From Candidatus Methanomethylophilaceae archaeon (GTDB lineage: Archaea; Thermoplasmatota; Thermoplasmata; Methanomassiliicoccales; Methanomethylophilaceae), in NCBI GenBank assembly GCA_017524805.1, contig JAFXUX010000038.1:47188-111187 (forward strand): a DNA stretch of 64,000 bases, given 5' to 3'. The notes beneath the pieces are model-generated. The model ran no database searches. It had not been told where the DNA came from and saw nothing but the letters and a program-made list of their open reading frames with translations. This document shows, in pieces, positions 59,816 to 63,859 of this stretch. The position numbers and the translations under genes were made by a program. Each line of letters opens with the position of its first letter. Within the stretch, counting starts at the first letter, position 1.

Positions 59816-61411
59816 ATGAATACGAGGGTGGATTCTTTCGGGCAGTTCGACAAACGCAAGGACGATCCAGTCTTCATGGAATACTTGCTGGACCACCATT
59901 AGGACGTGATAGATAGTAAAGAAGGCGCCGAGAAGGTCCTTTACTCCGGCGAGGTCGCCCGCCTTCTCGCTAGGATGGCAGTACATGAGAGATGTAGCGC
60001 AGAATTCGAAAAGCGCCCTATGGACCGTGAGATGTATGCAAGGTACTACAAGACCTCATTGTACGTCGCCAGAAAAGGGATTGATATCGGGATCCAGCTC
60101 GCATACGATGCCCGTGACGAGGGGAGAGCGGTTTCTGATCTTCTGTATAACCATTACATGGGTTGGATCTACATCCATTACTCGATGATGCTGCTGGAGA
60201 CCCATCGCTATTTCGCCGCCATGAATGCGGTCTTGAATGCGGAAAACTTCCTTGTCCATGATTATTACAACGTCGTGACAAACGGGAATCTGAGCGCAGT
60301 CGTGTCCGAGCTAAGGAAACTGCCTGAATTCAGGAATCTCCCGTCAAACGTATCGGCAAAACAACGGAAGGACATCGTCGATAAGGCGCTCCAGTTCCTA
60401 TATTCAGATTTTCACAACGCGATCGAGGATAAGAAGCTGCGCATATTGTCCAAGGTCTACAAGGAGGTGCCGAAAAGGTACCACGACATGTATGCGGTCT
60501 GGGCCTACAGGGTTCTGGCGACCTTGTTCGAGCAAGACCACAGCATATTGTTAAACTTTGGAGGCGTGTATCGGGACCTTCACGAGGAGTATCCCGAGAT
60601 TCCCGATAAATATCCGGACCTTCCCGAGCTGTCCCTCAGGGATTCGGAGCTAGGAGAATCCCCTGAAGAGAAGGAATACGCCTTATGGGTCGCGAGCGGT
60701 GGCCTGGCACTGTCGTACCTAGATTTCGTTCCGGATCCCATCCTTCGCTGCAGGTATATATGCGATGATCTGCCCTTCGATTTCCACGACCCGGAGCAGA
60801 ACCTCATGATGGAGGATGTGATGGAGACCTTCGCCCACTGCAGGTTCCAGATATACATGGCTACGACCTACCCGGCTACATTCGCTGGCCTCGCATACAG
60901 CATGAGCCCCAAATCCAAGCGCATATACAACCAGGAGCTGCTTCTGGACGTGTACCCCCGCCTGTACTCGGTTCTGGACAAGATCTCGCACATAGTCATG
61001 AGGTGCTTCGGAATCGTCCTCTCGCCCAAAAGGGAGGGCGATTACCCCCCACAGCCATCCTACAACCTCATCGTCCAAGAGATCCGCGGCCATTCCGGCG
61101 GGAACCCCCATCTTCTGACCCTGTGCGAGATATTCGACGAGATCAACCCCCGCTTCATATACAGGACCCAGAAGGACCAGCCTTTCTACGCGATGCTCCC
61201 CGACGCGATTCACATGGACCGGCTGCGGCACCACATAATCCATTCGGGGGTCTCCCTGACGGTGGAGAGCAGCGGCAAGGAATCCAACAGGGAGATCGCA
61301 TACATAACCGAACGGGAATTCGGGTCGAGGTGCCGCGATCTGCTATACCTCGTCAAGGAAGCGATCATGAGCACCTGCCTGGCGCTCGAGTACAGGGACC
61401 GCCAGGAGTAA
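59816..61411 (+). CDS. LA2681-like HEPN-domain protein with in-frame amber codon
   Basis: 531 residues from ATG 59816, read through a TAG at codon 29 (59900-59902). GGAGGT (59802-59807) lies 8 bases before this ATG, a strong ribosome site, while the alternative GTG start after the TAG (59906) has none. The N-terminal half is helical (TPR-like). The C-terminal region has YSVLDKISHIVMRCFGI and NPHLLTLCEIFDEINP, then the HEPN motif R471-x4-H476 in LRHHIIH, and ends AIMSTCLALEYRDRQE, matching the LA2681-like HEPN family as I know it. HEPN proteins of this kind cut RNA in toxin and defence systems. The next gene starts 14 bases downstream, so they share an operon. Confidence 0.75.
59900..59902 (+). 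other. In-frame amber codon 29 of the HEPN gene (candidate pyrrolysine)
   Basis: TAG sits between EYLLDHH and DVIDSKEGAEKVLY. The upstream ATG has a strong Shine-Dalgarno; upstream of it the frame closes at a TGA (59798-59800). Confidence 0.65.
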
Positions 61412-61425
61412 AGCACATTTGTTAT

Positions 61426-62148
61426 ATGATAAAACGGATCCGCTTTACGATGCACATACACCTGTCCTTCGCAGGCAAGACTCCGGACCCCACCCTGAAC
61501 ACCGTCAAGGCAATACCCGGCGCGATAGACAGGGTGGTGCTACTGTACAGCGTGTCGGAGGACGGCATCTATAAGAGTACCGCGAGGACGCTCGAGGAGA
61601 AACTGGGGGAGATGGGGTACGAGTGCGAGTCCAGGATTATAAAGCCCTTCGATTTCCTCAACATAGTGGACGTGATATACGGCGTATACGAGGAATACAG
61701 CGGTGCGGACAACAAGGCCAAGTTCTCCGTGGACATCACCAGCGGTACAAATTTGATGTCCGCGGCCGCATGCAACACTGCGTTCTTCATGGATTCCGAC
61801 GTCTACTACATCATGGACCGTCGCATCTTCAAGGACAGGCCCCTGGAGGAGCTCCTTGTCAAGATACCCTCCCCGAAGATACCGGACGCCAAGCGCCTCG
61901 GAGGGCTGTCCCTGGACATGCTCAGATTCATCGCCGAGGAGCAGGATCAATGCCGCGAGGTCTGCAACGCCGACATCGCCAGGAAGTTCGGTATGAAGCC
62001 TCAGGCGGTGATGTACCATACCGCCAGGCTCGTCGACGCGGGGATCGTCGAGCTCGTCGACGCCCACACGCCGAAAGGGGTGATCGACAAGCGCAGGAAG
62101 GCCATCAGGATCAAACGCGAGGGGAGGTTCGTTTTGAGATGGACCTGA
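61426..62148 (+). CDS. CARF domain plus winged helix-turn-helix regulator (DUF6293-like)
   Basis: 240 residues from ATG 61426; ATG 61450 (MHIHLSFAGKTPD) may be the true start. Residues ~10-135 fit a CARF domain: an initial beta strand, VVLLYSVSEDGIYKSTARTLEEKL (~30-54) and KFSVDITSGTNLMSAAACNTAFF (~97-119), where DITSGT is the nucleotide-binding turn. The C-terminal ~70 residues are a winged HTH (CNADIARKFGMKPQAVMYHTARLVDAGIVEL). This is the architecture of Csa3 and the HFX_2341/DUF6293 regulators, which sense cyclic oligoadenylates. It is 14 bases after the HEPN gene. Confidence 0.8.
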   Translation: MIKRIRFTMHIHLSFAGKTPDPTLNTVKAIPGAIDRVVLLYSVSEDGIYKSTARTLEEKLGEMGYECESRIIKPFDFLNIVDVIYGVYEEYSGADNKAKFSVDITSGTNLMSAAACNTAFFMDSDVYYIMDRRIFKDRPLEELLVKIPSPKIPDAKRLGGLSLDMLRFIAEEQDQCREVCNADIARKFGMKPQAVMYHTARLVDAGIVELVDAHTPKGVIDKRRKAIRIKREGRFVLRWT

Positions 62149-62280
62149 GCCGCCGATCAGTGCTCGAGGCGGCCGTGCATCGAGGATTCTCGTCTCCTGC
62201 AGGCGGATCGCAAAGCATGGAACGCTTCCAGGGCGTCGCATGTCTCATGCAAGTATTATACTATCATCAAAATCATATTT

Positions 62281-62291
62281 TTATTATAAAA
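62281..62291 (+). promoter_or_regulatory. Promoter of the viperin gene
   Basis: TTATTATAAAA sits in a 60-base AT-rich tract (about 62255-62312) between the CARF gene and viperin, with the start codon at 62329. A transcription start around 62312 would leave a short leader. The AT-rich tract stands out from the GC-rich surroundings. Confidence 0.55.
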
Positions 62292-62328
62292 GAATTTTAC
62301 ATTATAATTAACAAAGCATCGGCCTGTC

Positions 62329-63159
62329 ATGAACTCGGAATCCGTTCCATGCAGGAAATTCAGGTCCGCGAACATACACGTGTACGGAAGATGCAACTAC
62401 CGCTGCGAGCACTGCTTCGACCGCTGCCTCACGAAGAACTACATGAGGCCGGACGACTGGGCGGACGTGCTGTCCTTCCTCAAGGGGTGTGGCGTCGAGA
62501 AGATCAACCTGGCCGGCGGGGAGCCCCTGATGTACCCGTTCCTCGACCAGATGTGCTACCTCATCAAGGGGATGGGGTTCAAGCTGTCCATCGTCAGCAA
62601 CGGGTCCCTGATCACCGACGACTGGCTGAGCCGCATGGAGGGGGTGGTCGACTGGATCGGGCTCTCGATCGATTCCGTCGACGAGGAGGACGAGATGCTG
62701 ATCGGCAGGGGCAGCGGAGGCCACCTGGACAATGTCGCGGAGGTGGCCAGGATGGCACGCGAGCACGGCATCAGGGTGAAGCTCAACATCACAGTGGTCA
62801 GGAGGAGCTGGATGAAGGACTTCGGGCCCCTCACTGAGAGGATACGGCCGGACCGCGTCAAATGCTTCAGGGCCCTGACGCTGAGGAACGCAAACGACGA
62901 CGTCCCAGACACGTGGTCCGTCACGAACGAGCAGTTCGCGGATTTCAGGCGCAGGCACGAGGGCATCGGGAACATCTTGTTCGAGGACAACGAGGACATG
63001 GTGGCGTCGTACGTGATGTTCGATCCCATGGGCAGATGGATGGTGAACACCGGGTACGAGAAGAGGTTCATCTCCTTCGAGGTCGTCAGGAGGGAGGGGC
63101 TGGGCAGCGAGGTGGACATCGAGAGGTACTACAGCCGCAACGCGGTCTACGATTGGTGA
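62329..63159 (+). CDS. Prokaryotic viperin (radical SAM nucleotide dehydratase)
   Basis: 276 residues. The radical SAM cluster motif is C22-C26-C29 (CNYRCEHCF). Viperin hallmarks follow: INLAGGEPL (~59-67), SIVSNGSLI (~87-95), SIDSVDEEDEMLIGRG (~113-128) where the human protein has SCDSFDEE..LIGRG, SYVMFDPMGR and the terminal YDW. Viperins convert CTP, GTP or UTP to chain-terminating ddhNTPs that inhibit viral polymerases. The substrate nucleotide cannot be read here. It has its own AT-rich promoter and lies 132 bases before the CRISPR array. No Shine-Dalgarno is seen, so a leaderless or near-leaderless message is likely. Confidence 0.93.
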   Translation: MNSESVPCRKFRSANIHVYGRCNYRCEHCFDRCLTKNYMRPDDWADVLSFLKGCGVEKINLAGGEPLMYPFLDQMCYLIKGMGFKLSIVSNGSLITDDWLSRMEGVVDWIGLSIDSVDEEDEMLIGRGSGGHLDNVAEVARMAREHGIRVKLNITVVRRSWMKDFGPLTERIRPDRVKCFRALTLRNANDDVPDTWSVTNEQFADFRRRHEGIGNILFEDNEDMVASYVMFDPMGRWMVNTGYEKRFISFEVVRREGLGSEVDIERYYSRNAVYDW

Positions 63160-63291
63160 TTCCGGCGGGATGCGACTTCGGGGACGATCTTTGGGCTCCC
63201 GTGTGCTGTCCGCACCGGGCGCCATGGATCCGTCCGGCGCCTCGCCCAGCGGGACGACGCTCCCGCACGACGGGCTCGCCGTGATAATGTC

Positions 63292-63859
63292 GTTTCAATC
63301 CACGCACCCACGAAGGGTGCGACACCGTCATGAACGAGATCATCAAAGGGGTCGAGAAGTTTCAATCCACGCACCCACGAAGGGTGCGACCCGGGAAGCG
63401 GGCGTTCGTGGATTCGTCCAGAGGGTTTCAATCCACGCACCCACGAAGGGTGCGACTCCGCTTACTGCCTAATCCGTATCGCAAGAGACTATGTTTCAAT
63501 CCACGCACCCACGAAGGGTGCGACATTCTAGAAAACAGGCCAGCATACTACGGCGCGTCTGTTTCAATCCACGCACCCACGAAGGGTGCGACCCGACGGA
63601 GCGGCCAAGAGCATATCCGACATCATGTTTCAATCCACGCACCCACGAAGGGTGCGACCTTAATAACGGTGTTGTTGTAAGCGTCAATATCGGGTTTCAA
63701 TCCACGCACCCACGAAGGGTGCGACCGGACGACGTAATCACCGGAACCCTTAAGCTGCTGTTTCAATCCACGCACCCACGAAGGGTGCGACGCCGGACAA
63801 TTCACGTTTAATGACACCGACGGCAACGTTTCAATCCACGCACCCACGAAGGGTGCGAC
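63292..63859. CRISPR. CRISPR array, nine 32-base repeats and eight spacers
   Basis: Repeats start GTTTCAATCC and end GGGTGCGAC, containing an ACGCACCC/GGGTGCG inverted repeat. They begin at 63292, 63359, 63425, 63493, 63561, 63627, 63694, 63760 and 63828, all identical. Spacers are 34-36 bases. The repeat resembles the reverse complement of type I-C-like repeats that end ATTGAAAC, so crRNA transcription is probably on the minus strand, with the leader to the right. No cas genes are in the window. Several spacers read as open codons (for example GQFTFNDTDG in spacer 8), consistent with viral coding origins. Confidence 0.97.

Follow-up and report, generated by a model that had tools for sequence, protein, structure and literature searches.

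A conserved HEPN, CARF-winged-helix and viperin gene cassette in Methanomassiliicoccales, with an in-frame TAG likely read as pyrrolysine

The cassette at the end of the contig

The DNA analysed here, hereafter the window, is a stretch of 64,000 nucleotides from a Candidatus Methanomethylophilaceae archaeon (assembly GCA_017524805.1), which forms the end of contig C38 (47188-111187) of a draft genome (G000; 1.95 Mb, 47 contigs, 98% complete). On the plus strand, at the right end of the window, lie the genes of a HEPN protein, a CARF-winged-helix protein and a viperin, followed by nine CRISPR repeats. An initial annotation of this DNA had already named an LA2681-like HEPN, a CARF-winged-helix gene, a viperin and a CRISPR array, and profile matches and the repeats themselves confirmed that all of them are present. 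The three genes are a real, conserved cassette.

The first gene (59816..61411, plus strand) encodes a HEPN (LA2681) protein with a possibly TPR-like N-terminal part, of 531 codons when an in-frame TAG is read as sense. The frame begins at ATG 59816; the open reading frame (ORF) obtained with genetic code table 11 begins at GTG 59906 and has 501 aa. In the profile search the protein scored 99.9 bits with PF18733 (HEPN_LA2681; cut-off 27, E 1.6e-28), and its Rx4H motif reads RHHIIH, in which none of the 15 alignment rows deviates at R471 or H476; it therefore carries both marks of the LA2681 HEPN family, a PF18733 match over the cut-off and an Rx4-6H motif.

The second gene (61450..62148, plus strand) encodes a regulator of 232 aa, which matched the PADLOC CARF3 model PDLC01866 over its whole length (E 9e-78), while its C-terminal winged helix was over the cut-off of Pfam HTH_24. 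The Pfam CARF-type models stayed under their cut-offs (26.7 versus 30 and 20.5 versus 24.6). The N-terminal CARF domain followed by a C-terminal winged helix is the Csa3-like architecture. As for the start of this gene, ATG 61450 is kept in five of five cassette loci, and ATG 61426 occurs in the window only; among 35 database relatives, 30 have 230-234 aa and the other five have 162, 177, 217, 217 and 256 aa. The distance of 14 bases originally given between the HEPN and CARF genes relied on ATG 61426 and has to be corrected, since the conserved start places the two genes 38 bases apart. This gap contains a conserved TATA-like element, TTGTTATATSATAAA (61419..61433, plus strand), found in all five loci (in G092 one base off) at 17-31 bases before the CARF ATG.

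The third gene (62329..63159, plus strand) encodes a radical S-adenosylmethionine (SAM) protein with the motif CNYRCEHC, which was assigned with NF038283, the pVip models and alignment A2. It scored 224.8 bits with NF038283 against a cut-off of 180, and an E value of 7e-67 with PADLOC pVip; the NF038283 match and the CxxxCxxC motif together identify it as a prokaryotic viperin.

Conservation and transfer of the cassette

The survey covered 147 genomes of one order (Methanomassiliicoccales), and a wider sample of 389 genomes covered the phylum. The script that identified neighbouring genes simply takes the longest ORF and can miss genes (it skipped the CARF gene of the window itself). The order HEPN-CARF-viperin was found in 5 of the 147 genomes: the genome of the window; G092, a sheep-rumen metagenome-assembled genome (MAG) of Candidatus Methanomethylophilaceae, in the same genus as the window; BRNA1 (G034) and the methanogenic archaeon ISO4-H5 (G037), both single contigs; and G112, a Thermoplasmata MAG, in which the HEPN gene is a 72-codon remnant. 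The CARF gene and the viperin gene are intact in all five cassettes. The overlap of at least five genomes has a chance probability of 6e-7, a crude value that treats the genomes as independent. The initial annotation had named a gene order kept in no relative as a refutation of its reading; the order is kept in relatives.

PF18733 was over its cut-off in 6 of the 147 genomes. All six have a CARF-winged-helix gene beside the HEPN gene, and five of them have a viperin too; in the sixth genome, G080, the HEPN and CARF genes are divergent and no viperin is over the cut-off. The long relatives of the window HEPN share 72% (G092), 65% (G034) and 53% (G037) identity with it, and that of G080 is distant (28%). 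With an E limit of 0.001, CARF relatives were present in 24 of the 147 genomes, the close ones (70-78%) in G112, G034, G092 and G037. Viperins over the cut-off occurred in eight genomes, and seven of them adjoin a CARF gene, namely the five cassettes, G017 (with two CARF genes) and G052 (with a fragment at the contig edge). The CARF profile was trained on 18 CARFs of the order, including both copies of G017, which is consequently hit by construction; the fragment of G052 and the CARF of G149 were outside the training set. In the phylum sample, a viperin was found in 11 of 389 genomes, four of which had already been counted in the order survey. In G149, which belongs to the same phylum but lies outside the class, the viperin in the locus L137 (6032-9310) is divergent from a CARF-winged-helix gene, which is followed by a second CARF gene; the gene after the latter matches the far part of CARF-PIN models.

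The viperin of the window shares 82% identity with that of G092, 82% with G034 and 79% with G037, and the CARF protein 78%, 75% and 71%, respectively, and 78% with G112; for PylS, the corresponding values are 90%, 62% and 60% in G092, G034 and G037. The flanks of the cassettes mostly differ, with few family-level matches between them. Because viperin and CARF are about as similar to the copies of other genera as to the same-genus copy and PylS is not, and because the flanks mostly differ, the cassette was likely transferred horizontally between genera as a unit. A tRNA-Arg (CCG) gene (58784-58858 of the window) precedes the cassette by about 0.95 kb. The stretches fetched for the other four loci contain no tRNA gene, so that there is no sign of a common tRNA insertion site. 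The relatives also carry optional genes, namely a second, HEPN-like gene in three of the five cassettes, a P-loop kinase-like gene and, in one case, a small PemK-like gene.

Some observations weigh against a tightly bound unit of three genes. The HEPN gene of G112 consists of its last 72 codons only, at a contig start, that of G034 holds an in-frame TGA (the near-identical protein P0003 is intact), and a HEPN-like frame adjoining a CARF gene in G091 is broken; because of these three cases, the HEPN looks dispensable. Moreover, the viperin of G076 has no CARF gene nearby, and among the seven further viperins outside the order the CARF profile detected an adjoining CARF gene only for that of G149. 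It is conceivable, albeit doubtful, that viperin and its CARF-winged-helix regulator are the functional unit, with the HEPN as a loosely attached neighbour in a defence island. Such an arrangement would agree with the viperins of G017, G052 and G149, which adjoin CARF genes where no LA2681 HEPN was found, with the broken or cut HEPN in two of the five cassettes, and with the promoter-like element that the CARF gene has of its own. However, the HEPN gene adjoins a CARF gene in all six genomes that have it, including G080, in which no viperin is over the cut-off, and in the window just 38 bases separate the two.

Some other CARF-winged-helix genes of the order stand beside large helicases, part of which are predicted RNA-cutting proteins. 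Six of these helicase neighbours were scanned, and three (in G074, G116 and G117) match an N-terminal Swt1-type HEPN (PF18731, E 3e-6 to 3e-4, one of the three over the Pfam cut-off); in the same three loci (L084, L085 and L086, respectively), a second CARF gene adjoins the first, beside the helicase.

An in-frame TAG in the HEPN gene

Codon 29 of the HEPN gene is a TAG (59900..59902, plus strand), and G092 has TAG at the same codon. In both genomes, PylS is over its cut-off and a gene of the tRNA for pyrrolysine (tRNA-Pyl) lies in the PylS region. In alignment A3, which includes 13 full-length homologues out of 18 proteins found, the N-terminal part of the protein is aligned through the TAG, so that homologous sequence stands on either side of a codon common to a second species. 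The base identity between the window and G092 is 73% in the 28 codons before the TAG, versus 31% (ungapped) just before the ATG. Over the whole gene, the nonsynonymous and synonymous divergences (dN and dS) between the two are 0.19 and about 1.25. Two clusters of database proteins begin near this site: P0010, of the G092 type and with 11 contigs, starts beyond the TAG, where a gene caller would place the start, and P0002 (88%, partial), judged from the protein sequence, starts just after the TAG site.

To read TAG in its genomic context, about 98 kb (the window and two other stretches of the genome) were called with table 11 by a codon-usage gene caller, which drops ORFs of less than 80 aa and likewise skipped the CARF gene of the window. 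Of 72 predicted genes, two ended in TAG, but the sequence beyond the TAG is strongly coding in each case, so that no clear TAG terminator remains in this sample. One of them lies in the PylS stretch and resembles a methylamine methyltransferase; the other is a repeat protein in the window (4492-6693, minus strand), of 733 codons with TAG at codons 49 and 277, in which the coding signal is strong before as well as after codon 277. By its appearance, this protein is presumably Sel1-like and then LicD-like, and it is likely to be another gene whose TAG is read as pyrrolysine. When TAG was taken as sense, eight frames held a TAG, but four of them may have arisen by chance, since the piece to one side of the TAG is very short, weak or of negative score. 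A frame at 22041-22790 of the window, on the plus strand, has TAG at codon 138 and a positive coding score on both sides.

In the gut methanogen 'Ca. Methanomethylophilus alvus', 1.6% of stops are TAG, and 16 further pyrrolysine proteins, including Cas1, have been predicted, as given in a section of Borrel et al. 2014 (PMC4153887). The resemblance lies in ordinary genes, one of them a defence gene, that appear to tolerate TAG in a gut methanogen with pyl genes; the difference is that here the TAG stands in a HEPN gene and is common to two species. Taken together, the TAG codon shared with G092, PylS and tRNA-Pyl, the lack of a clear TAG terminator in about 98 kb and this precedent make it likely that the UAG of the HEPN messenger is read as pyrrolysine.

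Not all observations point in this direction. The TAG site is variable, and homologues carry S, A, T, Q or R; the 28 codons before the TAG, taken alone, give a weak signal of selection (dN 0.30, dS 0.57, 15 synonymous sites); and PylS, over its cut-off in eight of the nine genomes tried, was not so in G112. That the TAG is a true stop, with the protein starting at GTG 59906 or the gene decaying as a pseudogene, is in our view unlikely. The GTG does open an ORF of 501 aa in the window, and the residue at the TAG site is not conserved; yet in G092 the same TAG is followed by 76 codons without an in-frame ATG, GTG or TTG, the segment ahead of the TAG has an aligned counterpart in each of the 13 full-length homologues, and both genes of the 98-kb sample that apparently ended in TAG continue into coding sequence. 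With the TAG as sense, the pyrrolysine at this site is perhaps neutral.

Conserved elements upstream of viperin

The sequence before the viperin gene is also conserved. In the upstream alignment of the five loci, a 21-base element, TTTTTATTATMAARGAATTTT (62278..62298, plus strand), precedes a TATA-like box, TTATAATT (62302..62309, plus strand), which lies 20-27 bases before the viperin ATG; the two stand in this order in all five cassettes, and the 21-base element is a predicted regulatory site. In the five whole genomes, TTTTTATTATMAARGAATTTT has one copy each with zero mismatches, always 5' of viperin. The degenerate 21-base pattern was drawn from these five loci, so that its fit there is by construction, but its uniqueness is not. 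The only copy with one mismatch stands before a P-loop kinase-like gene of ISO4-H5 (L077, 12436-13134), whose product agrees with viperin at 11 of its first 15 residues; this is an apparent capture of the promoter via duplication. No wider regulon was seen: only four further hits, with three mismatches, were found in the five genomes, versus five for a reversed-pattern control. Because of proximity and conservation, the CARF protein is predicted to bind the element upstream of viperin and perhaps that upstream of its own gene.

The position of these elements also bears on a quite improbable alternative, in which HEPN and CARF would form a toxin-antitoxin-like pair, with the CARF-winged-helix protein repressing the HEPN gene and viperin as a passenger. 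HEPN and CARF are indeed the strictest pair (six of six), and in G034 and G112 the HEPN decays and the CARF gene stays intact. On the other hand, no conserved block was seen by eye 5' of HEPN in the four loci compared, in contrast to the CARF and viperin genes, which do have upstream elements, and viperin-CARF pairs occur without an LA2681 HEPN.

The CRISPR array and the source of the signal

The CRISPR array (63292-63859, no strand assigned) consists of nine exact 32-base repeats and starts 132 bases after viperin. The array is of type I-C, because the same repeat, in six copies, adjoins Cas1c, Cas4c, Cas7c, Cas8c, Cas5c and Cas3c on contig C17, which is not joined to C38 in the draft. In the flanks fetched for the other four cassettes, a simple repeat scan, requiring three exact 24-base copies, revealed no array. 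The idea that CRISPR activation controls the neighbouring genes is thus not supported, and a working link between cassette and array was rejected, the array being I-C and none having been seen at the other four cassettes; the array is likely an independent neighbour outside the cassette. After the last repeat, 141 bases (63860-64000) run repeat-free to the contig end, and a frame in them is similar to a phage sequence (E 6e-4, with 45% over 38 residues). This could be the start of a provirus, or the assembly may have crossed from a spacer into the genome of a virus.

CARF domains are usually explained by the cyclic oligoadenylates that Cas10 makes, and a signal of this kind from type III CRISPR was part of the initial annotation, which proposed a search for type III genes beyond the window. 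Of the 147 genomes, one (G005) has the Cas10 palm domain (PF22335), and the five cassette genomes gave no hit; the same search was positive in 5 of 14 controls. The Cas10 expected of a type III ancillary system was thus not detected in the cassette genomes. As G000 is a draft, a Cas10 may have been missed there; G034 and G037 are single contigs. The SMODS cyclase (PF18144) was found in none of eight genomes, including the five with the cassette (controls 3 of 14; other cyclase families were not searched), and so the nucleotidyltransferase (CD-NTase, SMODS) expected of a system like the cyclic-oligonucleotide-based antiphage signalling system (CBASS) was not seen either.

The CARF sequence itself departs from the known sensors. 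Proteins that bind cyclic oligoadenylates carry a basic residue at CARF motif 2, used for binding cyclic tetra-adenylate (cA4), as described in a section of PMC8844856. In the alignment, each of the five cassette CARFs has GTN at motif 2, as do 15 of the 18 CARFs of the order that were compared, and the basic residue of Csa3 proper is missing. Because of this GTN, the CARF 'sensor' may bind no nucleotide, which counts against the mechanism proposed below. Type III signalling was rejected: that the CARF protein answers type III cyclic oligoadenylates, perhaps tied to the adjacent array, is very improbable, for although the Csa3 CARF domain binds cA4 (PMC8844856, in the same section) and the array begins so close 3' of viperin, no Cas10 was found in the cassette genomes, the array is I-C, and none was seen at the other four cassettes. 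Overall, the conserved unit of three families stands from the initial annotation, and its type III signal and its link to the array are not supported.

A proposed mechanism

The cassette would likely defend its hosts against viruses. The best-supported roles, judged from the domains, would be those of CARF as switch, viperin as effector and HEPN as second effector. We lean, by a little, towards a reading in which the CARF protein senses an infection-born nucleotide other than the cyclic oligoadenylates made by Cas10 and switches on viperin, and the HEPN cuts RNA. In such a scheme, infection would raise a nucleotide or RNA-end signal (neither a Cas10 nor a SMODS cyclase having been found as its source). 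The CARF protein would bind this signal and is predicted to alter its hold on TTTTTATTATMAARGAATTTT, and perhaps also on its own TATA-like element. The viperin family makes 3'-deoxy-3',4'-didehydro nucleotide triphosphates, which terminate viral RNA chains; the enzyme of the cassette would thus convert a nucleotide triphosphate to this form, so that viral RNA chains end. Finally, the HEPN, by its invariant Rx4H, would degrade RNA as a second, harsher layer, and the optional genes of the relatives (second HEPN-like, kinase-like, PemK-like) might reinforce both arms.

A relay free of any cyclase, to which we give a small chance, would run in a different order: the HEPN would sense the virus and cut RNA, and the cut ends or a related nucleotide would be the CARF ligand that turns viperin on. 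Since the HEPN is completed only if UAG is read as pyrrolysine, its trigger would be gated by a methylamine-linked pyrrolysine supply.

Relation to known systems and significance

The viperin of the cassette is, like the prokaryotic viperins (pVip; NF038283, PADLOC PDLC02903-02905), a radical SAM viperin over the family cut-off, and, as with kinase-linked pVips, a P-loop kinase-like gene is nearby in some relatives, although not in the window; unlike pVips, it is linked to CARF-winged-helix and LA2681 HEPN genes. Viperins of Asgard archaea have been expressed in E. coli and challenged with T7 (PMC11291487). The CARF protein resembles Csa3 in having a CARF domain and then a winged helix, and is a probable transcription factor; it differs in that the cassette genomes have no detected Cas10, the neighbouring CRISPR is I-C and GTN replaces the basic residue of motif 2. 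In a section of PMC4012209, CARF-winged-helix proteins are proposed as nucleotide-sensing regulators of defence genes, some of them outside CRISPR loci. A part of PMC3710099 lists fusions of the LA2681 HEPN with TPR; like the proteins described there, that of the window has a PF18733 domain and Rx4H, and its N-terminal part may be TPR-like, and unlike them it has CARF and viperin neighbours and an in-frame TAG.

In PADLOC, models named 'TPR' (PDLC02907) and 'Csa3' (PDLC02909) are numbered next to the viperin models. From this adjacency in numbering only, a viperin-Csa3 type of locus is probably already catalogued, and a viperin-TPR type may be as well. The CARF of G017 matches PDLC02909 (E 1e-43); the CARF of the window fits PDLC01866 best, and PDLC02909 is absent from the best 25 of its 40 matches. 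Similarly, the protein adjoining the viperin of G423 matches PDLC02907 (E 7e-27), but the HEPN of the window does not: read through the TAG, it matched none of the PADLOC models at E values of up to 1. A passage of PMC12988326, citing Bernheim 2021, mentions a viperin-TPR system found in archaea only. The portions of the literature retrieved for viperin with CARF, HEPN, Csa3, TPR or Methanomethylophil- hold no description of the trio. The view that no described system combines the three families thus holds for the papers found and has to be tempered by the PADLOC numbering, by which parts of the association are probably known. New here are the TAG codon of the HEPN gene common to two species, the 21-base element of viperin and the second HEPN-like gene in three of the five cassettes.

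A conserved and probably mobile unit of CARF, viperin and HEPN genes, in genomes without a detectable Cas10, raises the question of which other signals an infected archaeon detects through a CARF regulator. The cassettes provide a small set of loci for testing it, including those of the strains BRNA1 and ISO4-H5. Viperin, an enzyme common to animal antiviral immunity, would here be tied to an archaeal transcriptional switch, and a predicted antiviral RNase would seemingly depend on the 22nd amino acid.

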